DNA of 64,000 nt. Origin: Mesobacillus sp. AQ2. GTDB lineage: Bacteria > Bacillota > Bacilli > Bacillales > Cytobacillaceae. Each line of letters opens with the position of its first letter. Position 1 is the stretch's first letter. The notes beneath the pieces were generated by a model. The model had not been told where the DNA came from. It saw only the letters and a program-made list of their open reading frames with translations, and did not search any database. The DNA is taken from positions 2,671,001 to 2,735,000 of the forward strand of contig NZ_CP126080.1 in the NCBI RefSeq assembly GCF_030122805.1, in the 5' to 3' direction. Position numbers and translations under genes: made by a program. Below are positions 2,296 through 39,064 of the stretch, piece after piece.

Positions 2296-3075
2296 TCAGC
2301 TGGCAGTTGTTTTTTCCTTGACAGCTGTAAAAACATTCTTAAGCGTTCCTATCTCATCAATCTGACACTCAATTACATCTTCTGAGCCCACTAGCTCTGC
2401 ACCTACTGGACTGCCTGTAAGGATGACATCCCCGGGTTTAAGCGTCATGACCTTTGTCAAATAAGAAATCATTTTGCGGATTGGAATGATCATCAACTCA
2501 GCAGGGCTGTTTTGTTTTTCAACACCGTTTAAATTTGCCTTTACATTTACTTTGAAAGGGTCGAGTTCAGTTTCGATTACTGGTCCAAGTGGTGTAAAGG
2601 TATCAAAGGATTTGCCGATTGTCCAATGTCCATCCTGGTGGAAAAAGCTTGGTGCTGTGACATCGTTGCCGATCGTATAACCAAACACATAGTCTAAAAC
2701 TTCCGATTCTGAAATATTCCTTGCTTCTTTCCCAATCACGACGGCAAGTTCAGATTCAAATTTAACTTGTTCTGTTCCTTCAGGTATGATGATTTCTTCT
2801 TCAGTCCCGATAACAGAAGATACAGGTTTAAAGAAAAACACAGGAATCTCCGGAAGTTCAGATGGGAGATCCTCCTTTTTCGCAACAAAATTGGCGCCGA
2901 TTCCAATTATTTGGTTTGGAACAAGAGGGGCAAGGAACTTAACCTCTTCAGCTGAAAAGACTTCTCCTGAATAATCCCAGCTACCCAACATATCTCCTGA
3001 AATGCCCTTGATGCCTTCATCCGTAACGACACCTGAATACTCCTTTGTATCAACTGTAAATCTAGCGAATTTCAT
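2296..3075 (-). CDS. Fumarylacetoacetate hydrolase (FAH) family protein
   Basis: A 259-residue protein of the FAH superfamily, whose members are hydrolases, decarboxylases or isomerases of oxo-acids such as acylpyruvate or 2-hydroxyhepta-2,4-diene-1,7-dioate. The metal-binding signature is visible as KFESELAVVIGK (E-x-E pair) and GYTIGNDVTA (aspartate), followed by GKSFDTFTPLGP and a C-terminal MTLKPGDVILTGSPVG. An AGGAG-type site precedes ATG 3075. It is followed by the IclR gene. In a glycolate cluster an oxaloacetate decarboxylase or acylpyruvase role in draining C4 acids is plausible, but the exact reaction cannot be read from sequence. Confidence 0.85.
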   Translation of the reverse strand: MKFARFTVDTKEYSGVVTDEGIKGISGDMLGSWDYSGEVFSAEEVKFLAPLVPNQIIGIGANFVAKKEDLPSELPEIPVFFFKPVSSVIGTEEEIIIPEGTEQVKFESELAVVIGKEARNISESEVLDYVFGYTIGNDVTAPSFFHQDGHWTIGKSFDTFTPLGPVIETELDPFKVNVKANLNGVEKQNSPAELMIIPIRKMISYLTKVMTLKPGDVILTGSPVGAELVGSEDVIECQIDEIGTLKNVFTAVKEKTTAS

Positions 3076-24257: not shown

Positions 24258-24278
24258 GGCTCCCCCAGAAAGGGAGCC
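24258..24278 (-). terminator. Terminator after the giant subtilase gene
   Basis: GGCTCCC and GGGAGCC form a 7-bp stem, followed on the minus strand by TTTTCTTTTT, 36 bp after the stop codon. Confidence 0.82.
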
Positions 24279-24313: not shown

Positions 24314-27300
24314 TCAGCTTGCTTTGTCTTTTTTCTCAGGTTTCCCGGTCACAATCAATTTCATTGCCTTTATTGCCTTCGTTTTACCTGCGTAGTTTTC
24401 AGTTTCTGCAATCAAAGTATGGATACCATTATCCAAATTCAGTTCTGCCTGGAAGATTCCGTCACGTCCAGTTTTAACAGAATCAATCAGGAAGATTTCG
24501 TTTCCGCGCTTTTCGTAGATATTCACAGAGGTGCCATTGGTTGCTGTACCCTTTACCAAGGCAGGTTCTCCTTTCACCATCATTTCTTCTTGATCCCATA
24601 ATGGTTCTTCAGGGATTTCCTGCTCTGCATCCTTCGACCAGCGCAATGCATTTACGAATAATTTTCGCCCATTCTTCGTCCATCCATAATCAGGTCCGAT
24701 CATATTGGTGACCGCAAATGAAGACATCAGCAAATGCATATGCTCCTTGCTTCTGAATTCAAACTCAATCGAATTACCTTTTCTTTCACTATCGATATAT
24801 AAGCTCGAGAGTGGTACACCTGAGTAATTTTTGAAAGTTGAGTATGGACTTTTTGCGGTATGGATTTTGACCAGACCGTCCTCATCAAAACTAATGCCAT
24901 CAAAAATTGGGTGTCCATCCACTCCATCGATATAAACAGCGCCTTCATTATACCCTTGCTGATCGATTTCAGGACTTCCCACTAACTCGTTGAGCACTGG
25001 AATGGAACCTTCATCGACACCCCATGTTCCTGTGAACACCAAGCTGGTTTTATGTTCATCGCTTTCTTCTATCAGCTGTTGGAACTGTTCTCTAGTACCT
25101 TTGCTCGTATTGACCAGGATGATCTCATATTTCTCGACATTTCCGAGGATGTCCCAGCCTTTTTCTTCTGCATACAATTTTTGTTCATTCAGCAGCTTTG
25201 ACAGTGCTCCGTTTACATCTCCAAGCACGGCTGCTTCAAATGGATTCAATTCCAGGTTAAATTCCAAATCATCTGAGCCTATAGTGAACTCGAAACTTTC
25301 CTTGAGGTAACCATCGACAGTTACCTGCAGAGTATAGTCACCAGGCAATAAATCTTTAAATAGATAGGTTCCATCATCCTTGGCGGAGCTTTCGGTCTTA
25401 AAGTCCGGCTCATCTTTCGGAATCAAAATCAATTGTGCATCAGCTATCGGTTTCTTGCTTTTCTTGGATGTAATGGCACCCTTCAATTCTGATCCATCAA
25501 TTGCTTCAAGGGTAAAGTGCAGCTCAACCCTGCTTCCCACATCTTCGACTTTCGCTTCCTTGGTCTGTTCTTTAAAGCCTCTTGCCTGGACTTTTAAGTT
25601 ATACTCACCAACACCAATGCCAAATTTATACTGGCCAGCTTTATTAGTTGTCGTTTTGTGGCTGGTTCCCTCAATGGTGACAAAAGCTCCTGCAATCGGC
25701 TTCCCTTGACTGTCCTTGACTTCCCCAGTAATCTCTCCCTGGCTTGCTGTCAACGCATAATCAATCGCATTCAAGTATACTTTTTTAGCATTTTCAGTCC
25801 AGCGATCGTTCGGGTGGCCATATGCACTAATTTGTAGTGCAGAAAGCAGGATGTGGACACTATTCGATGAACTGAACTTATAGCCAATCGTGCTTCCCAG
25901 CTCCCCCTTATTCGGATTCGTCAGAGATGCAAGCGTTGTTCCACTATAATTTGAATACACCGAGTACTGCACAACACCTTTTGGATTTACAAGGAGCTGG
26001 ACCTCATCCCCTTTATTGAAACCTTTCAGGATAGGATGATCTTCTGCCACTTTCAAACTGATTTCTCTATCAACGTAACTTCTTTCAAGGGATTCCGGAT
26101 CACCGTAAGCGTTGCTAAGATCACCAATTGTCCCTCCATAATTCGCAGTGAAAATCATGCTGACTTCATTTTCGTTCGCCTTCTCAACCATAGCCTTGAA
26201 GCGGTCTTCATTCATGTAAGTGTCATTGACAATGACTGCTTTATAATTTTGCATATTCTCTATCAACCGTTCGTATTCCTTATATGGATAGAATTCAATA
26301 TCATAACCATTTGTCTCAAGGAACGGCATGATTCTATCCTTCTGAGTAGGATTGGCAAGAATAGCAATCTTCTCGGATTCAATAAGAGAGGCATTAAAAT
26401 CAGTTTGCTGCCCTTCTGTAATTTCGACTGACTGGTAAATCGGGCTATAGCCTGTCGCAATCACTCTAACTTCATAAGTTCCTGCAGGCAGTGTCGTCTG
26501 ATAATTCCCTTCCTCATTTGTCTTCACGGTCACTGGTGTGCCAATTACCTCGACATTTGCCCCGGCAATCTCTTCTTTAGTAGATGCATCAACTATTTTA
26601 CCTGCCAGAATACCGGAATTGACAGGTTTGATGGCGAAAGCTTCAGTCACTGCCTGACCATTGGAAATTGTGATGGTAAAATCTTTTGATTCGTGACCAA
26701 AAGCTTCCACAGTCAGAGAATAAGTTCCTTCCTCAAATGCGGCGAAGAAATTCCCTTTATCATCTGTCTGATAAGTTTTGCCCGTTTCTTTTACTTTGAT
26801 CGACGCCATGACTGGTCCATTCTCATTCTGGACAGTACCCAGGAGTTCCCCGACAAGGGCGTCTTTTTCGTCGAGTGCCCAGTTCAGTGCATTATTCAAG
26901 AGACGCTCCCTTGCAGGGTCAAAGGAATCATTCGGCTTGAAAACATGGCTGATTGTCATATTGGCGAGCAGGATTTCGACTGAATCGATTGTTCTGCCCT
27001 TGTATGCGACCATGCTGCCCTTTTCTCCGGTTGCTGTATGCGAGAAGTCTACGACAGTTTTACCTGAATAACCGTCAAAGCCATAATAGTAACCCGATTT
27101 TCCTGGAATCTCGATAATATCCCCTGTGTTGAATCCTGTTGTCAATGGATGGTCTTCAAGTACAACCCCTTGTGCTCCGGCTTTGTTATTATGTTCAAAG
27201 ATTGTCTTTGGATCTTGGTTGAATTCCTGCAAATAGCGAATGGAACCTCTTCCGCCAGCCTGGCCAGTCCAAATGACCGATTTACGCTTTTCATCCAGGG

Positions 27301-30300
27301 CTTTTTGGAATGCGAGGAAATCCTCTTTTGACGGGACGAGGCTCGGTGCATAATCCGAGTTGGCGAAAACAACATCCACCTCATCCAATTTTTCTATATC
27401 CTGATAATTGAGGTACAACACCTTGTAACCTCTTTCCTCAAGATACTGCTTATACGATGTTCCCGAAGCAGTCAGGTCCACGATCACTCCTATTGTTGGT
27501 GAAGGACGTAATTTCACACTCAGGGAAACTTTTTGTTTATCAGTCACCTTCAGGCTGACATCCTGGCGTACATATCCATCCTTTTCAATCCTTGCTGTGT
27601 AATCTCCCGGCTCAACTTTGGTGATAACATATTGTCCCTGCAAATTTGTCACTGCTTCTCTTGGTTTTCCGAGGATGGTTACCTTGGCACCCTCTAGCGC
27701 ATTTCCATCCATGGAATCTTCAACTGTTCCAGAAATCACTCCGACATTCTCAGCTGGAGAAAGAATAACTTCCTTTGGTTCACTATCCACTTCTGCACTA
27801 GCCTTCACTGTTCTTGCACCATACCCATAGGCACTGATTTCAATTTCGTATTCCCCTGGCAGTATAGCGATCGTGAAGCCCCCATCCTCGTTGCTTGACT
27901 GGGTCTGGAACGGCTGTCCCTTTACTTTGATATCCGCTTTCAATGGATTGCCTTGTTCATCGACAACCTTCCCGCTGATTACGGGATACTCGACATTGGC
28001 TGCCCATAATACCGAGTTGATCAAAAGCTGCTTTCCTTCCTCGGTGTAGTCTTTCGCTCCATGATAATAACCAAAACCATGGCCGCTCATCAGCAATTCT
28101 GCACTTCCGGCCGACCGTGGCTTATAAGCCATGCCAAGACCATGAGGGACATCAGAACCTTCATGCTTGATTTCAGCCAGAGGATAACCGCTGTAGTCCT
28201 TGAAATATCCGATATAGCTGGCAGCCGGGGACAGGATTTCAACCAATTCTTCTTCCTTTGCTCCATTGAAGACAGGATGCTCTTCGAGAACTTTATATTG
28301 AGCCGCTTCTGTCGTTTTCCTTATTGTTTTCAGCTCTTTTGGATCATTCCTGTAACTCACGAGCTGCTTGATTCCGCCACCCCATACCGCATCACCAAAG
28401 ATCAGGCTGGTCTGTGCTTTGTCGGCAGCAGCAAACATCTCATCGTTTAAAGCTGATGAACTCGGATCATTGAAGAAAATAACATCAAACTCATTCATCT
28501 TTTCAATTAAATCTGCAGGCTGTACATCCCTGACTTCAACCCCGATTTCTTTAAATAATGCCTTAAAGTTTTTATCTGTTGAATAGTAGTCACCTACAAC
28601 TCCGACAGATGGCATAGGGATGATTTTGATATCCAAATCTCCAGTATGACGTGCTACATCAATGCTTTGCTTATTCGTGATGTATCCTTCCTTGCTGAAA
28701 GTAATTTCAAATACCTCTTCCGCTAATCCTGATATTTTATAACGTCCATTCGTTGCGGTCTGTACTTGTTCTACTATTTCTCCCGCCTGGTTTTTCACAG
28801 AAACAAGGACGTCGGAAAGCTCCATGCCAGATACTGAATCCTTGACACTGCCTTCCAGATCACCTTTTTCTGATTCACCAAGTGCGATTTGAACAGTTGC
28901 TGGGGATTCATTGGCTACTGTGATTGTCTCTGACTTGGATCCCAATCCCTTCGAACGCACTTCCAGCTTAAAGGTTCCTTCATCATGAAAAATGGTAAAG
29001 CTTCCGTTTTCGTCAGTTTCCGCTTTTACGCCAGTTTCCAATACTTCGATAGATGCTTCAATAGGCTGTCCGGATGAATTGGTTATTTTACCAGTGACCT
29101 TTCCATATTTCACGTTATACAGGTAGTCAATGCTATTGAACAAAATTTGCTGCTGTCCTCGCAGCCATGCTTTCGATGATTTCCACGGAACTGTAGCATG
29201 ACTTGACAACAATAAATGGGCACTGTCTTCGGAGACAGCATTATAAGCGATACCCGCCCCGACAAAACCCTGATCGGTGCTTCCGATTTTTCCAATTGTC
29301 CTTCCAGAATAATCGTTGAACCAGGCAAAATCAGCGTTCCTTTCTAACACATTGATTCTGTCCCCCGCTTTGTATCCTTTGAAAATAGGATGTTCAGCTT
29401 CAACCTGGATTCTGATTTCCCCAACATCATAATCATGGCCCAGCTCTTTAGGATTATTATAGAAGTCTTTCAAATGATGAATGGACCCATAATTTGAGCC
29501 CCACTGGTCGGTGAAGATGATGCTGACATCATTCGCTTCTGCTTTATCGACTAAATCTTTAAACTGTGCCTCTGTTGGCTTGATTCCATCTGAACCATAG
29601 CCTCCATTCAAGTAAATCACTTTATAACGGCCGATCTCCTCAATCACGTCCCATTCCCGCTCTTCAGCTGTATACCCATTAACGTTCAGCATGGTGGTGA
29701 TTTCGCTCTTGTAATCATTCAAGACCGCAATATCAATTGGCTGCAATTCGAATGTCATATCCGCATTTTCACCGGCTTTTACAACGATTTCCTTGCTGCC
29801 AGCCTTAAATCCTTTCATAGAAATCGACACAGTGAAGGTTCCTTCAAACACTTCTTCAACTGAAAATAACCCTTTGCTGTCTGTTTGACCTTTCACTGGT
29901 GAGCCCTTCAATTCAATCCCTGCTCCCTCTACAGGCTTGCCAGTTCGCTGGTCTTTTACCAGGATGGAGATTGACCCTTTTGCTGCATCTTCAAGTTCAT
30001 AGTCTTTTGTTAAAACATACCCGGAAGATAACCCAACTTGTTCGGTAATTTGCTTTTTGCCGTAAGATGAAATCCGGATCGTATAATCTCCCGGAGTCTG
30101 TTTTAGCAGAAATTCTCCATTTTTATCTGTTTCAATAGAATTTCCTGTTTCGGCAACAGTAACAGTACCTTTAATGGCATTCCCACCTGTATCTTTCAAT
30201 GTCCCTTTTACAGAAGCTGGTGAATTGTAACTTTGAACACCGTTCTGGTAAGGCACGAAAATTTGTCCTGGCAGGATCGGTATACCAGAAGTACTGTAAA

Positions 30301-33300
30301 CTGGAAGGCTGAAATCCTTCAATCTTTCACCGGTATACACATCAATGACAGATAGGTTTCCGCTTGTGCCTGCAAAAAACAGAAGCCCATTAGCAGATAC
30401 AGAACCATTGTTCAGCGTCGTTCCGACAGCCCGGTTGTTCCAGAGTTCCTCGCCAGTATTCGAGTCAAAAGCGCGCAATGCAGGCTGTACAGCTGAACCG
30501 ATCACAACGATATTTTCATAGACGATTGGAGACCCAGCCTGAGTATCTCCAATTCCGCCTGCTTTCCACTTTTCTTCGCCCGTTTTCGCATCAAGGGCAT
30601 AAAGTGTGCCGCCTTCTGTATTGAAATTGGTACCTGCAACATATAGTGTTCCTTTATCGTATACCGGCTTGGATGCAATTCCTTCATTTACAAGAGTTTT
30701 GCTCCATACTTCGCTTCCGTCTTCTACACGAAGAGCTCTTAGTTTTTGATTATCATAGCTGCCGATAAATAGCATCCCGTCGCCTGCACTTGGCCCGAAA
30801 TAGGCAGGGCCTCCAAGTTCGACGATCCATTTCTTTTTGCCTGTTTCAGCATTCAACGCAATCAGCTTTGCTTGATCTCCAAGATCGGAAGCAACAAACA
30901 GTGTCCCATCAATGTATAAAGGAGATTCATAGACTCCTATTGCACCTGTGTTTGCAGTCCATACAATGCTGCCTGATTTTAAATCGAGTGCATACATCTT
31001 TCCGTCCTGCCCGCCTGAAAGATAGACTTTGTCTCCTTCTATCGTTGGTGAAGACCTATTCGAGCTTCCAATTTTCACTGTCCATAGCTCTATTCCGGTT
31101 ACAGCATCCACTGCAATAACAGACCCGCTGTCGGTAACCAGAATCAATTTCCCTTTGGCTGTTGCAGGAGTGGAAAATAAAATTTTTCCTTTACCTCCTG
31201 TATCGTAGTTCCATCCTTCAACAAGCGCATCCAGGTCTATGGCATTTCCGGATACTGCATTCCTGTGCATATTCCCATTCGCCATACTCCATTCTTTTTT
31301 TGTCAGTGTGGCGTTCGCTTTGACCTTCAGTTCAAGAGAGAGATCCTTGCTGACTTCTATCTCCTTTGCCAGGCCAGTTATTCCTTCACCCGAAATCTGC
31401 AGAACATACTTTCCTGCTGGCAGATTCTTGACCTCAAACTTTCCGCTTGCATCCGTTCGATAAGTGGATAGAGGAGTTCCTTTTACCCTTACAAAGGCAA
31501 AAGGGATTGTTTCCCCGTCCTCAATTGATACATTTCCTTTTACACTAAAAGTATCTGCATTCTCCAATACCCAGTTCACAGATTCTGTTTCGCCCTTCTT
31601 CAGCTGTATTGTGAATTGCAAATCCTTATAGCCAAAGGAAGTGACCTTAACCTTATGGCTGCCTTCCCTGATTTTGAACTTGAAAGTTCCATCTTTGCCA
31701 ATGTCATAGGACAGCCCTTCTTCTGCAACCTCAAGTTTCCCTGGTATTGGCTTTCCAGCCTTGTCTGTAAGCTTTCCGGCAAGTTCACCCGCAAAGGCTG
31801 TTTCGGTGACAGCCTGATAAATATTGATGATTCCGCTGCCATAGGAATCATTGGGCAGAGTACCCATATGCGGTTCAACTCTGACAGTCTGTTTAAGTGT
31901 TTCTTTTATCTGGTCGACTGTCAGGCTGGGATTCGCCTGCAATAAAAGCGCGACTGCCCCTGTGACATGAGGAGTGGCCATCGAAGTACCGCTGATTGTA
32001 TTGTATTTTCCTTCATTTCGCTTGGATGGCCATGCTGAATAGATCTTGTGGCCAGGCGCAGAGATATCCGGTTTGATAAGTCTATGCTCATTTCCATTCT
32101 CATCCTTCCAAAAAACCGGACCCCGACTTGAGAAATAAGCTGTTTGATCATAAATATCCGTTGCCCCGACCGCGAAAGTTTCCGGAAAACTTCCCGGTGA
32201 ACCGATTGTTTGTGAGCCAGGGCCATCGTTTCCAGCTGCGAAAGCTGGGAATATCCCTGCTGATACCCATGCTTTGACATCTTCATAAAATTCGAGATTA
32301 TAAGTATTGGCATTCCCCCATGAATTATTGACCACATCCGGAGCCTTTGAAGGGTCCCCGCCTGGAGCCATGAACCATTGGAATGCCTGATGGATGGCTG
32401 ATAGTGTTGTCGAACCGCCGTCGTTGAAAATTTTGGCGGCAATCCATTCAGCTTCAGGTGCTACGCCGATCGGCTCTCCGTCTCCTCCGCCAACGGCAGT
32501 ACCCGCTACGTGCGTTCCATGGCCAAATCCGTCATTTGGCGTTTTATACCCCTGACCTGACAGGTCAATCCAGGAATACTGACCGTTTCCGTCCCGACCG
32601 CGGTAATTTTTCTTTAGAGCTTCGTGGTTTCCATCTACTCCGGAATCCATGATACCAACAACAATCCCTTTTCCTTTTAACCCGTATTGTCCCCACACTT
32701 TAGGAGCATAGATTTTTTCGAGTCCCCATTCAGGCAGTCGCGGGGGAGACTCTTCCACAGTCACCTCAGGTAAGCTGAGGGTTTCATCAAGGGAGATTTC
32801 CGCAATATCTTCACGTTTTTTCAGTTCATCCAGAGCTTCCTTTGTGACGGAAGCGGTTATTCCATTGATAATCCATAGAGTCTCTTTCTTTTTGGCTTTT
32901 CCCTTTGTCTCCATTGCTGATAGTGCCTGTTGTAATCCCTTTTGGGAATTGTCCGCTTTTTCTTTGAGGTGGTCTTGAATTGATTTTATTTTTTCTGCCC
33001 GGTTTTTCTTTTCTTTTACCTGGGGATAAATCTTATTGAGATCAGGTTGGTCCTTCATCCTGATGATGACATCAATTACTTGCTCCCTTTCAAAGGCTTT
33101 AAGGAGAACAGCATCCTTTTCCTTTTCAGCAGCTGTTTGTTTATCACCTTTCAATGGTGGCGGTTCAATGCCCAGTCCATCTAACAGGTTCGTCAGCTCT
33201 TTATGGTCTGCTGACTTAGTTTCATTCTCTCCTGTATTGCCTGATTCATATTCTTTTTCCCGTTTTTTCTCCAGTACGAGTTCTTCTTTTGAAAAACTAG

Positions 33301-33418
33301 CTGGCTTCTGTGATGCAGCAATGGCTAGCTGTGATGAAAAAGTCGAAAATACCATTATGAATGCCAGTATTACCGCCCAGAGCTTTCTAGCAGTCTTTTG
33401 CTTCGATAATCTTCCCAA
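24314..33418 (-). CDS. Giant secreted subtilase (3034 residues) with PQQ-type propeller and five-fold repeated module
   Basis: TTG start at 33418 behind AGGGGGTG. A signal peptide (about 1-35) is followed by a charged propeptide with an I9-like part (about 100-225). The S8 catalytic domain (about 230-540) is of bacillopeptidase F type with Asp258 (MDSGVDGNHE), His300 (GHGTHVAGT), Asn397 and Ser479 (GTSMATPHV). Next come two carboxypeptidase-regulatory-like beta domains (about 545-705), a PQQ/PEGA-like beta-propeller (about 735-1065) and two more beta domains. Then five ~205-residue alpha/beta domains start at 1229, 1604, 1975, 2350 and 2728, each separated by two beta domains. A final beta domain closes the protein. 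There is no sortase motif or C-terminal membrane helix, so it is probably released or wall-bound. Known S8 chemistry predicts extracellular proteolysis; the role of the array is unknown. Confidence 0.93.
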   Translation of the reverse strand: MGRLSKQKTARKLWAVILAFIMVFSTFSSQLAIAASQKPASFSKEELVLEKKREKEYESGNTGENETKSADHKELTNLLDGLGIEPPPLKGDKQTAAEKEKDAVLLKAFEREQVIDVIIRMKDQPDLNKIYPQVKEKKNRAEKIKSIQDHLKEKADNSQKGLQQALSAMETKGKAKKKETLWIINGITASVTKEALDELKKREDIAEISLDETLSLPEVTVEESPPRLPEWGLEKIYAPKVWGQYGLKGKGIVVGIMDSGVDGNHEALKKNYRGRDGNGQYSWIDLSGQGYKTPNDGFGHGTHVAGTAVGGGDGEPIGVAPEAEWIAAKIFNDGGSTTLSAIHQAFQWFMAPGGDPSKAPDVVNNSWGNANTYNLEFYEDVKAWVSAGIFPAFAAGNDGPGSQTIGSPGSFPETFAVGATDIYDQTAYFSSRGPVFWKDENGNEHRLIKPDISAPGHKIYSAWPSKRNEGKYNTISGTSMATPHVTGAVALLLQANPSLTVDQIKETLKQTVRVEPHMGTLPNDSYGSGIINIYQAVTETAFAGELAGKLTDKAGKPIPGKLEVAEEGLSYDIGKDGTFKFKIREGSHKVKVTSFGYKDLQFTIQLKKGETESVNWVLENADTFSVKGNVSIEDGETIPFAFVRVKGTPLSTYRTDASGKFEVKNLPAGKYVLQISGEGITGLAKEIEVSKDLSLELKVKANATLTKKEWSMANGNMHRNAVSGNAIDLDALVEGWNYDTGGKGKILFSTPATAKGKLILVTDSGSVIAVDAVTGIELWTVKIGSSNRSSPTIEGDKVYLSGGQDGKMYALDLKSGSIVWTANTGAIGVYESPLYIDGTLFVASDLGDQAKLIALNAETGKKKWIVELGGPAYFGPSAGDGMLFIGSYDNQKLRALRVEDGSEVWSKTLVNEGIASKPVYDKGTLYVAGTNFNTEGGTLYALDAKTGEEKWKAGGIGDTQAGSPIVYENIVVIGSAVQPALRAFDSNTGEELWNNRAVGTTLNNGSVSANGLLFFAGTSGNLSVIDVYTGERLKDFSLPVYSTSGIPILPGQIFVPYQNGVQSYNSPASVKGTLKDTGGNAIKGTVTVAETGNSIETDKNGEFLLKQTPGDYTIRISSYGKKQITEQVGLSSGYVLTKDYELEDAAKGSISILVKDQRTGKPVEGAGIELKGSPVKGQTDSKGLFSVEEVFEGTFTVSISMKGFKAGSKEIVVKAGENADMTFELQPIDIAVLNDYKSEITTMLNVNGYTAEEREWDVIEEIGRYKVIYLNGGYGSDGIKPTEAQFKDLVDKAEANDVSIIFTDQWGSNYGSIHHLKDFYNNPKELGHDYDVGEIRIQVEAEHPIFKGYKAGDRINVLERNADFAWFNDYSGRTIGKIGSTDQGFVGAGIAYNAVSEDSAHLLLSSHATVPWKSSKAWLRGQQQILFNSIDYLYNVKYGKVTGKITNSSGQPIEASIEVLETGVKAETDENGSFTIFHDEGTFKLEVRSKGLGSKSETITVANESPATVQIALGESEKGDLEGSVKDSVSGMELSDVLVSVKNQAGEIVEQVQTATNGRYKISGLAEEVFEITFSKEGYITNKQSIDVARHTGDLDIKIIPMPSVGVVGDYYSTDKNFKALFKEIGVEVRDVQPADLIEKMNEFDVIFFNDPSSSALNDEMFAAADKAQTSLIFGDAVWGGGIKQLVSYRNDPKELKTIRKTTEAAQYKVLEEHPVFNGAKEEELVEILSPAASYIGYFKDYSGYPLAEIKHEGSDVPHGLGMAYKPRSAGSAELLMSGHGFGYYHGAKDYTEEGKQLLINSVLWAANVEYPVISGKVVDEQGNPLKADIKVKGQPFQTQSSNEDGGFTIAILPGEYEIEISAYGYGARTVKASAEVDSEPKEVILSPAENVGVISGTVEDSMDGNALEGAKVTILGKPREAVTNLQGQYVITKVEPGDYTARIEKDGYVRQDVSLKVTDKQKVSLSVKLRPSPTIGVIVDLTASGTSYKQYLEERGYKVLYLNYQDIEKLDEVDVVFANSDYAPSLVPSKEDFLAFQKALDEKRKSVIWTGQAGGRGSIRYLQEFNQDPKTIFEHNNKAGAQGVVLEDHPLTTGFNTGDIIEIPGKSGYYYGFDGYSGKTVVDFSHTATGEKGSMVAYKGRTIDSVEILLANMTISHVFKPNDSFDPARERLLNNALNWALDEKDALVGELLGTVQNENGPVMASIKVKETGKTYQTDDKGNFFAAFEEGTYSLTVEAFGHESKDFTITISNGQAVTEAFAIKPVNSGILAGKIVDASTKEEIAGANVEVIGTPVTVKTNEEGNYQTTLPAGTYEVRVIATGYSPIYQSVEITEGQQTDFNASLIESEKIAILANPTQKDRIMPFLETNGYDIEFYPYKEYERLIENMQNYKAVIVNDTYMNEDRFKAMVEKANENEVSMIFTANYGGTIGDLSNAYGDPESLERSYVDREISLKVAEDHPILKGFNKGDEVQLLVNPKGVVQYSVYSNYSGTTLASLTNPNKGELGSTIGYKFSSSNSVHILLSALQISAYGHPNDRWTENAKKVYLNAIDYALTASQGEITGEVKDSQGKPIAGAFVTIEGTSHKTTTNKAGQYKFGIGVGEYNLKVQARGFKEQTKEAKVEDVGSRVELHFTLEAIDGSELKGAITSKKSKKPIADAQLILIPKDEPDFKTESSAKDDGTYLFKDLLPGDYTLQVTVDGYLKESFEFTIGSDDLEFNLELNPFEAAVLGDVNGALSKLLNEQKLYAEEKGWDILGNVEKYEIILVNTSKGTREQFQQLIEESDEHKTSLVFTGTWGVDEGSIPVLNELVGSPEIDQQGYNEGAVYIDGVDGHPIFDGISFDEDGLVKIHTAKSPYSTFKNYSGVPLSSLYIDSERKGNSIEFEFRSKEHMHLLMSSFAVTNMIGPDYGWTKNGRKLFVNALRWSKDAEQEIPEEPLWDQEEMMVKGEPALVKGTATNGTSVNIYEKRGNEIFLIDSVKTGRDGIFQAELNLDNGIHTLIAETENYAGKTKAIKAMKLIVTGKPEKKDKAS
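24629..29734 (-). repeat. Five tandem ~375-codon modules in the giant subtilase gene
   Basis: Each module has an alpha/beta domain of ~205 residues plus ~165 residues of paired carboxypeptidase-regulatory-like beta domains. The alpha/beta starts map to 29734, 28609, 27496, 26371 and 25237, a period of 1113-1134 bp. Shared marks are a first strand such as IAVLND, VGVVGD, IGVIVD, IAILAN or AAVLGD, then FTDQWG-like, then EHPIFKGY-like, then a YSG tripeptide, then HLLLS-like. The alpha/beta fold is reminiscent of ThuA/class I glutamine amidotransferase-like domains. Copies are diverged at the residue level, so the duplications are old. Confidence 0.85.
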
Positions 33419-33599
33419 GTTTCTTGCACCCCCTGAAAATTTAATTACCGAAGAAATACTGCAAAATTTTGTAAAAACCTTTAATTATTTTGAATATTTA
33501 TACTTTTCAGATTAAAATGATTAAAAAGCATTATAACTATGCTGGAATATATAGTAAATAAGTAACAGCTGGTCATAAATAAAAGACCATATAATGGTC

Positions 33600-37204: not shown

Positions 37205-37384
37205 GGAAAACCCACTTTCTTTTAAAAGAAAATCTATCTATTCTATGATTACCTTAATAGGCAGGATAAAAACTCATTGGGTCTTAATACTCTCTTAAAT
37301 ATCATGTTTTTAACATACAAAGAGGTTATCTTTCCCTCCATCGGGAATAATATTCTAGCAGCTTTTTTAAAAGGTGGGAATAAG

Positions 37385-39064
37385 ATGCTGAAATTAGAAA
37401 GAAATCATGACCCCAGGAAAAATGCTGAAATGATCTCACGCATCTCCGGGAAAAAATTATCGATGGTTCAATTGATCAGTGAAACTAACCAGTTATTCAG
37501 AGAAGTCAGCGAGGATTACAAGCCTCTATTAATGAATTCAAATAAAAAAATATCGTCTATTTTCACTAATTTCCAGACTAGCCTAAGAAGAGTTTTCCAG
37601 ACTAAATCAGCCTTTGATGACGCTGTTCAATATGACACGATTGTTGACAGAAATGGAAATGTCTTTCCCGATTGGATAGGAAAATTGAATGAAGAGTATA
37701 AACACCTCGTAAAAGAAATTAATCGGGAGGTTCATATTGAAGACTTCGGAGCGGTCGGAGATGGTAAGACAGATAATACCGAAGCTTTCAGGATGGCTGT
37801 TGGACGTGGACATGTAAAGGTATATGTACCAGAAGGTATATTTATCGTGAAGGAGATAAAACTGCCATCCTATACCAGTCTTGTCGGCGCAGGAAAGGGA
37901 AAAACAGTCATCAAGCTTCATGACTCTTCCCCAAAAGGAAAAAGGCTAGTAACGAATAAACATCACCGAACGGGAAATCGCAACATTTATGTCAGCGGAA
38001 TGACCCTGGACTGGAATGTTGAACGGCTCGGAAATGTTGAAAAAACAAGCACCTGGGGAAACCACTCCAGCTGCCTGCTGTATGCCAATGTAAAATACGG
38101 CTGGGTAAAGGATGTTGAAGGAATCAACCCCGGGCTTCATTGCTTCGACATTTCGTCACCTCTCTACAATTACTATGGAGATGGGTACCGGGCAAGGGGC
38201 GGAAGTGAATTTATCTGGCTGGACAATCTGACAGGCTACGGTTTTGGCGATGATGGGATTACCACTCATCATAGCGATAACATTTTCATTTCAAATTGCC
38301 ATATGAGTGATCCAAGCGGAAAAGCACATAAAAAAGGATTTTCAAACTCCAACGGAATAGAAATAGATGATGGTTCAAGAAATGTATGGCTATTGAACAA
38401 CTCTACCACCAGATGCTTCGGCGGTATTGAAATTAAGGCCCACCATACATCTTCTGCAGCAAATAATGTTGTCATTATAGGCCATTTATCAGTGAACGAT
38501 AATCGATCTTATAATTTTCGGCATATTGGCCATCACAAGGAGAATGATCCTGAATCAAAAACAGCCATTAACATAACAGCAGCCAACATCATCTCCATCC
38601 ATCCGGTTTACACTGAACTATATGCCCATTCAGCACCTAGAGCCATGGTTGTATCTGCGTACAAAAACGTTGCCGTCAACCATTTCACGGCAATTGGCGA
38701 TCCATCCTATGACTATAATGGCGAACCTGTCTTGGCCATCCAGTACAGAGCCCGAAATGTCATGCTAAAAAATATAGAACTAAGGGGTTTTTCAAACGCT
38801 GGTTCAGACATCAAGGTTTTCGGAGGCAATAATCATGCTGACAATGTAAAAATTAGAAATGTGGTCACAACACATTCTGCTCCTAAAACAATAGAAATCG
38901 GGAAGGGCGTAACAGAATCATCAGTTGAGAAGGTTTTCGCTGAGGCAATCAATGGCAGGACAGTTGTACAAATATCTGAAAATAAGGCCATGGTAAAGGA
39001 TATTCAATCAAAAGGCTTCAGGCAAAATATATCGAGACACTTCGGAAGTGAGATTAAGGTGTGA
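37385..39064 (+). CDS. Right-handed beta-helix protein, pectate-lyase-3 / GH28-like
   Basis: A 559-residue protein. I start at ATG 37385 (MLKLERNHDPRK) behind AAGGTGGG; the open frame further upstream lacks a ribosome binding site. Residues ~1-115 are helical and charged. Then HIEDFGAVGDGKTDNTEAFR (about 121-140) opens a pectate-lyase-superfamily beta-helix. Within it GDDGITTHHSDNIFISNCHM and NSNGIEIDDGSRNVWLLNN are the aspartate-rich turns seen in GH28 enzymes and phage tail spikes. No signal peptide or membrane helix is visible, unusual for a polysaccharide-degrading enzyme. It could act inside the cell, leave by another route, or be a domesticated phage spike. Confidence 0.78.
   Translation: MLKLERNHDPRKNAEMISRISGKKLSMVQLISETNQLFREVSEDYKPLLMNSNKKISSIFTNFQTSLRRVFQTKSAFDDAVQYDTIVDRNGNVFPDWIGKLNEEYKHLVKEINREVHIEDFGAVGDGKTDNTEAFRMAVGRGHVKVYVPEGIFIVKEIKLPSYTSLVGAGKGKTVIKLHDSSPKGKRLVTNKHHRTGNRNIYVSGMTLDWNVERLGNVEKTSTWGNHSSCLLYANVKYGWVKDVEGINPGLHCFDISSPLYNYYGDGYRARGGSEFIWLDNLTGYGFGDDGITTHHSDNIFISNCHMSDPSGKAHKKGFSNSNGIEIDDGSRNVWLLNNSTTRCFGGIEIKAHHTSSAANNVVIIGHLSVNDNRSYNFRHIGHHKENDPESKTAINITAANIISIHPVYTELYAHSAPRAMVVSAYKNVAVNHFTAIGDPSYDYNGEPVLAIQYRARNVMLKNIELRGFSNAGSDIKVFGGNNHADNVKIRNVVTTHSAPKTIEIGKGVTESSVEKVFAEAINGRTVVQISENKAMVKDIQSKGFRQNISRHFGSEIKV

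Follow-up and report, generated by a model that had tools for sequence, protein, structure and literature searches.

The window analysed here, a 64,000-nucleotide stretch of the Mesobacillus sp. AQ2 genome (contig NZ_CP126080.1, positions 2,671,001 to 2,735,000; genome of 4.80 Mb in a single contig), carries the gene for a very large subtilase. Positions 24314..33418 of the reverse strand were found to form one open reading frame (ORF) of 3034 amino acids (aa) with a single stop, which begins at a TTG codon with an AGGGGGT stretch just ahead of it. An earlier note, made from the letters of the DNA, had described a signal peptide, a complete S8 triad, a PQQ-like propeller and five alpha/beta (AB) domains at a period of 371-378 residues, each followed by two carboxypeptidase-regulatory (CpD) domains. 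The signal peptide is indeed recognisable by eye, the triad lies at the residues that had been named, inside the Peptidase_S8 match, the propeller is matched by PQQ_2 (E 8.8e-37) and shows DxxTG-like motifs at residues 771, 856, 943, 985 and 1026, and the AB modules start 375, 371, 375 and 378 residues apart. The CpD count had to be corrected: ten domains were implied, whereas Pfam gives twelve stretches, the pairs before and after the propeller having been overlooked. Two CpD domains do follow each of AB1-AB4, but AB5 is followed by a tail of ~100 residues. Because the twelve CpD domains pair up between neighbouring globular domains, one pair between each two, the protein has the plan S8-cc-propeller-cc-AB1-cc-AB2-cc-AB3-cc-AB4-cc-AB5-tail (cc, CpD pair), with seven globular domains (Table 1). 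From residue 94 onward, the pro-region can be aligned with the I9-bearing part of a paralogue in the same genome. The tail is tentatively classed as immunoglobulin-like; in relative P0071, Big_6/Big_13 appear below the cut-off at the matching position. Among the best 25 of 28 Pfam rows for the protein, none lies in the tail (2934-3034) and no wall anchor is recognised.

Table 1. Features of the 3034-aa subtilase gene and its flanks (positions in the window).
Feature	Residues	Position	Strand	Basis
Whole gene, multidomain subtilase		24314..33418	-	ORF and Pfam
Signal peptide	1-35	33314..33418	-	By eye: basic start, hydrophobic stretch, AIAA
Propeptide-like region	36-230	32729..33313	-	Weak Inhibitor_I9 match 118-216, E 0.063
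S8 subtilase domain	249-529	31832..32674	-	Peptidase_S8 PF00082, E 3.2e-58
S8 triad, Asp	D258	32645-32647	-	
S8 triad, His	H300	32519-32521	-	
S8 triad, Ser	S479	31982-31984	-	
CpD pair 1	544-704	31307..31789	-	
PQQ-like beta-propeller	~706-1066	30221..31303	-	PQQ_2, Beta-prop_ACSF4 and PQQ stretches within 734-1034
CpD pair 2	1067-1228	29735..30220	-	
AB module 1	1229-1435	29114..29734	-	Repeat alignment, predicted structure
CpD pair 3	1436-1603	28610..29113	-	
AB module 2	1604-1808	27995..28609	-	Repeat alignment, predicted structure
CpD pair 4	1809-1974	27497..27994	-	
AB module 3	1975-2188	26855..27496	-	Repeat alignment, predicted structure
CpD pair 5	2189-2349	26372..26854	-	
AB module 4	2350-2558	25745..26371	-	Sequence similarity only
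CpD pair 6	2559-2727	25238..25744	-	
AB module 5	2728-2933	24620..25237	-	Sequence similarity only
C-terminal tail	2934-3034	24317..24619	-	Weak CpD-profile match 2957-3018, E 0.016
Promoter-like TTTACT-17-TATAAT		33530..33558	-	Consensus scan, 10/12 positions
Terminator-like hairpin after the gene, 9 pairs and T-rich tail		24258..24278	-	
Terminator-like hairpin before the gene		33601-33583		

The five AB modules are 20-34% identical in pairs. In leave-one-out searches, a profile of four modules recovered the fifth at 113-151 bits (E 1.1e-33 to 2.2e-45), compared with 7.7 bits for the best of 1000 shuffled modules against the five-module profile; the repeat is therefore not a product of chance. 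As far as alignment and structural models reach, the five copies share a fold. The GATase1/ThuA (glutamine amidotransferase class I) alpha/beta fold, which the earlier note had suspected, is predicted by the structural models of AB1-AB3, and AB4 and AB5 would have the same class-I fold, judging by their similarity to the other modules. Identity to ThuA-like and class-I amidotransferase-like chains (1t0b, 4jqs, 3rht) is 9-14%; unlike these domains, the AB modules lack Cys, are secreted and stand five in a row. Cysteine is absent from the whole protein, and any Cys occurs in 12/645 modules of the family described below. Being without the catalytic Cys, the modules are not class-I glutamine amidotransferase enzymes. 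Assignment to Pfam ThuA (PF06283), DUF4350 or GIFT was rejected, as no such row appeared when the five modules were run through hmmscan with an E limit of 10, which returned only single-module rows for RAP (0.0068), 2-Hacid_dh (0.012), Esterase (0.05), UPF0180 (0.075) and SepF (0.22). An hmmsearch at E up to 10 gave no PDB sequence match to the modules, and PF06283 has no match in the genome at E 0.001. A rigid superstructure was also rejected, given an array model with a predicted template-modelling score (pTM) of 0.67 and whole-chain Foldseek rows of low TM, mostly beta-domain chains such as pilins.

Length variation is common among the repeat arrays of bacterial surface proteins. A protein search with the array region returned 97 proteins, with five AB modules in 87, four in 1 and none in 9, and a second search, started from the divergent member P0087, added 56 new proteins among its 59 rows. 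In these long-protein searches, candidates ranged from 0.55 to 1.75 query lengths, and scoring was confined to those that shared most words (7984 and 2411). Counted with a profile built from 435 first-set modules (first set, P0001-P0085, whose named members are Bacillota; second set, P0086 onward), the 153 distinct proteins divide into 129 with five AB modules, three with four and 21 with none. Exactly five modules are thus present in 129/132 AB-bearing proteins, with starts 364-390 residues apart in all 129, and the three exceptions are truncated or read out of frame: P0035 breaks off within module 4 and is labelled partial by its source, P0138, which has no N-terminal domains, runs ~20 residues into what resembles the start of module 5, and P0139 has no S8 row and an arginine/proline-rich, wrong-frame stretch in place of module 2. 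These three sequences were kept uncorrected. Genome searches agreed, with exactly five matches in each of 28 distinct AB-positive genomes over overlapping samples (25/193 genomes of the same family, 5/398 sampled from the class, 3/398 from the phylum). In the genus, 15/21 genomes are positive, the present one included; one of the six others is 66%-complete. A variable repeat number was ruled out by these counts. No standalone AB module was found in the genome searches or in a search of proteins of 114-362 aa (3005 candidates scored), in which the sole match, P0154 (209 aa, from a 685-base contig), is an array fragment comprising the end of module 3 and a CpD pair. Proteins of ~363-1668 aa fall within the reach of the genome searches only, and candidates were limited by shared words, so the family list is incomplete.

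Named sources were Mesobacillus, Neobacillus, Sutcliffiella, Evansella, Fictibacillus, Virgibacillus and Ornithinibacillus in the Bacillota, and Ornithinimicrobium, Jiangella, Micromonospora and Gaiellaceae in the Actinomycetota; apart from Jiangella, Mesobacillus thioparans and Limnocylindrales, these are phylum placements that we presume. One metagenome-assembled genome bears the unchecked label Candidatus Limnocylindrales (an order of Chloroflexota). The five-AB architecture hence defines a family that spans at least two phyla and has a constant number of modules; a survey such as the earlier note proposed does find a family, but the note had missed both this spread and the fixed number. 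Six actinobacterial members (P0117, P0124-P0127, P0132) carry the UniRef name 'alpha-amylase', and a scan of P0117 finds domains of the S8, propeller and CpD types but none of amylase.

The S8 triad is kept in 81/81 full-length first-set relatives, and in 41 longer proteins of the second set Asp and Ser are present in 41/41 and His in 40/41, the exception being a gap in a 2755-aa protein. Against 80 full-length first-set relatives, the median identity of the window protein is 0.79 in S8 (241-535), 0.52 in the propeller stretch (706-1095), 0.59, 0.51, 0.51, 0.46 and 0.54 in AB1 to AB5; the CpD pairs have 0.36-0.43, the pro-region 0.44 and the tail 0.40. A module tree was built from 26 proteins x 5 modules, 12 of the proteins belonging to the first set and 14 to the second, chosen by hand among the 129 so as to be widely spread, and each AB position formed a single clade (supports 0.82, 0.97, 0.996, 0.986 and 0.956). 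Between the two sets, modules at the same position average 0.28-0.34 identity and modules at different positions 0.21-0.285, so that the positional signal in these sequences is clear in the tree and modest in identity. In a midpoint-rooted S8 tree of 37 tips (26 family members, 7 S8 domains of the same genome and 4 neighbour ORFs; MEROPS holotypes left out), the 26 family domains form one clade (0.966) that splits into the first (0.854) and second (0.972) sets. From this S8 tree and the per-position AB clades, protease and quintet appear to have been together since before the two sets split, or to have been transferred whole.

In this 37-tip sample, the S8 domains nearest to the family clade are those of the paralogue in the same genome (OWN_L006) and of an ORF neighbouring another family locus (NB_L046). 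The paralogue (G000:C1, 2.383-2.387 Mb, open frame of 1434 aa) contains I9, S8, MAM, a CpD pair and glucodextranase-B. Its length and layout suggest bacillopeptidase F (MEROPS S08.017), a name that no library model gives it. Like the window protein, it has a signal-peptide-like start, an I9 propeptide, S8 and a CpD pair, and the two S8 domains are 38% identical over 490 residues; it is, however, less than half as long and bears MAM and glucodextranase-B instead of the propeller and AB modules. As far as this small S8 sample can show, the protease domain is probably related to bacillopeptidase F, in line with the earlier note. The layout differs: the window protein does not have the paralogue's order of S8, MAM, CpD pair and glucodextranase-B and represents a related but separate architecture; its unusual length, also pointed out in the note, was confirmed. 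The S8 region matches ~14 other places in the genome (19 matches, its own gene included). Lactocepin/SpyCEP-type cell-envelope subtilases are likewise large surface proteins with accessory beta domains, and SpyCEP chains occur among the low-TM Foldseek rows of the array model; to our knowledge, they have no propeller or AB array.

The separate parts (S8, CpD, propeller and GATase-like fold) are already known. The unexpected feature is the frozen AB quintet; the AB sequence family has no convincing Pfam row and no PDB sequence match. Literature searches of open-access papers, partly by title, found no description of the architecture, in agreement with the novelty that the earlier note had claimed; the accessible part of PMC2605481 mentions neither PQQ nor propeller, ThuA or bacillopeptidase, and the data mining described in the available part of PMC9549277 retained sequences of 350-410 aa. 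A 1700-residue array is fixed at five across at least two phyla, each position has its own sequence, and the domain was not found alone, a combination that points to a definite composite structure in an extracellular proteolytic system. Recurrence of the five-copy layout in distant bacteria suggests a precise job. Labels now in use, among them 'carboxypeptidase regulatory-like domain-containing protein' and even 'alpha-amylase', hide this system, and the question raised is what ligand five different ThuA-like modules would bind.

A possible answer is offered by the residues that the modules retain. They keep a signature at the end of the central sheet: G144 and G159 are near-invariant, and D7, N43 and H115 are present at most module positions. 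Aromatic residues occupy position 190 in 635/645 modules and position 142 in 626/645. The signature drifts at position 7 in first-set AB4, at N43 in second-set AB1 and AB2, and at H115 in first-set AB2. Agd3 provides a precedent for such a module: according to the accessible part of PMC7229062, its residues 141-364 have the same fold without the Cys-His-Glu triad, carry cleft aromatics and bind galactosaminogalactan, and D242A, W292A and W344A weaken binding, W344A most. This CBM87 module (6nwz) resembles the AB modules in using a GATase1/ThuA-like fold without catalysis and in its conserved aromatics, but it occurs as one copy on a fungal sugar deacetylase, whereas five AB copies are attached to a protease. 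The VIA alignment stops at residue 207 of AB1 and residue 361 of Agd3; position 190 and W344 are each 17 residues short of these points, which compares range ends and is not a residue alignment. A second fold relative also acts on polysaccharide (PMC10864358, available part).

On the strength of the Agd3 precedent and the aromatics kept at 190 and 142, the array is tentatively read as a five-site glycan-binding arm on a dedicated subtilase, a reading given slightly less than an even chance. The window protein would be a secreted subtilase related to bacillopeptidase F, whose five C-terminal modules, lacking the catalytic Cys and keeping the sheet-end signature, would bind carbohydrate as the Agd3 module does; the arm would tether the protease to a glycan matrix or wall polymer, where the S8 domain would cut a dedicated protein. 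Several observations weigh against this. The AB1 aromatics W28, Y46, W78, Y82, W138 and W184 are not kept across the five positions or in the second set, so the cleft is not uniform, and the conserved polar residues would also fit another activity or plain structure. No Pfam row in the hmmscan of the modules (E up to 10) links them to CBM87/Agd3, the likeness being one of fold only, and IFT52, amidotransferases and other chains match the fold as well as or better than Agd3. The pTM of the array model (0.67) leaves domain placement uncertain, and no conserved glycan-gene neighbours were found among 34 loci, where gene order is kept in the 8 closest only.

In a more far-reaching proposal, possible but on the unlikely side, AB would be a new domain family that occurs in groups of five and in no other form. 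Its five non-interchangeable modules would have been duplicated in an ancestor, never since gained, lost or used singly. Together they would make up a single composite site, or an assembly with pseudo-fivefold symmetry, that recognises a defined polymer (or one large partner) and delivers it to a dedicated subtilase, the whole being conserved between Bacillota and Actinomycetota. The frozen number and spacing, and CpD pairs that resemble spacers between every two globular domains, would suit a scaffold whose modules bind nothing and serve as rigid beads that fix a length or shape, keeping protease and propeller at a distance from the cell or building them into a defined assembly. Such a role is considered unlikely, as the AB modules are better conserved than the CpD pairs, although the gap is small for AB4, and a bead needs no near-invariant sheet-end signature. 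Recognition of a protein or peptide, in which array and propeller would bind a protein partner and present it to S8 as a dedicated processing protease, is more doubtful still: no possible partner gene is common beyond the 8 closest of the 34 loci, and two fold relatives act on polysaccharides, though they were chosen for that (PMC7229062 and PMC10864358, each in the part available). That the modules are enzymes, a hydrolase or amidotransferase of a new kind, would fit the near-invariant glycines and the polar residues kept at most positions but is very improbable, and catalysis was rejected as the principal reading, given the absence of Cys and the drift of the polar signature.

CWB2 wall-binding repeats are listed for 7/88 AB-bearing rows of the first search, and three stretches were confirmed in P0071; relatives bearing CWB2 therefore sit at the cell wall. 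The surface role suggested by the earlier note thus applies to some relatives, whereas the window protein, in which no such anchor is recognised, may be released.

The gene may be monocistronic, as it has a promoter-like site upstream and terminator-like hairpins on both sides. Downstream, the hairpin scan gave 2 overlapping sites vs 0.1 expected, whereas promoter-like sites in the stretch number 2 vs 1.1 expected and give no evidence of function. An operon or partner gene was rejected: the neighbours (a GNAT protein, EmrE, RDD and ArAE membrane proteins and a 920-aa downstream ORF) are common only to the 8 closest of the 34 loci (L021-L027, L029), among them four loci titled Mesobacillus (L024, L025, L027, L029) that have the gene order in common. 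Mesobacillus thioparans (P0003) has an array with 90% identity to the present one, and AB1 is 99% identical to a module in L021, whose record is titled Cytobacillus oceanisediminis 2691 DE0166. That title looks wrong, as L021 is near-identical to the window over ~20 kb, and so does the title of L022 (Chryseobacterium sp. ISL-80), which is 92% identical with the same gene order. In L023, L027, L053 and L054 the subtilase gene is split over at least two frames or pieces, by sequencing error or decay. A pectate-lyase/rhamnogalacturonase-like protein (PF12708) is encoded at 37277-39064 on the forward strand, opposite to the subtilase, as the fifth gene upstream, and is also present in L021-L023 and L025-L027. 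Lastly, a 1949-aa ORF with an LTD domain and OB-fold matches occurs in Mesobacillus-group genomes (L073:2853-8702, G085); its DUF4350/IFT52-GIFT/OST48-like segment at ~1310-1550 may be a GATase-like domain in another large protein.
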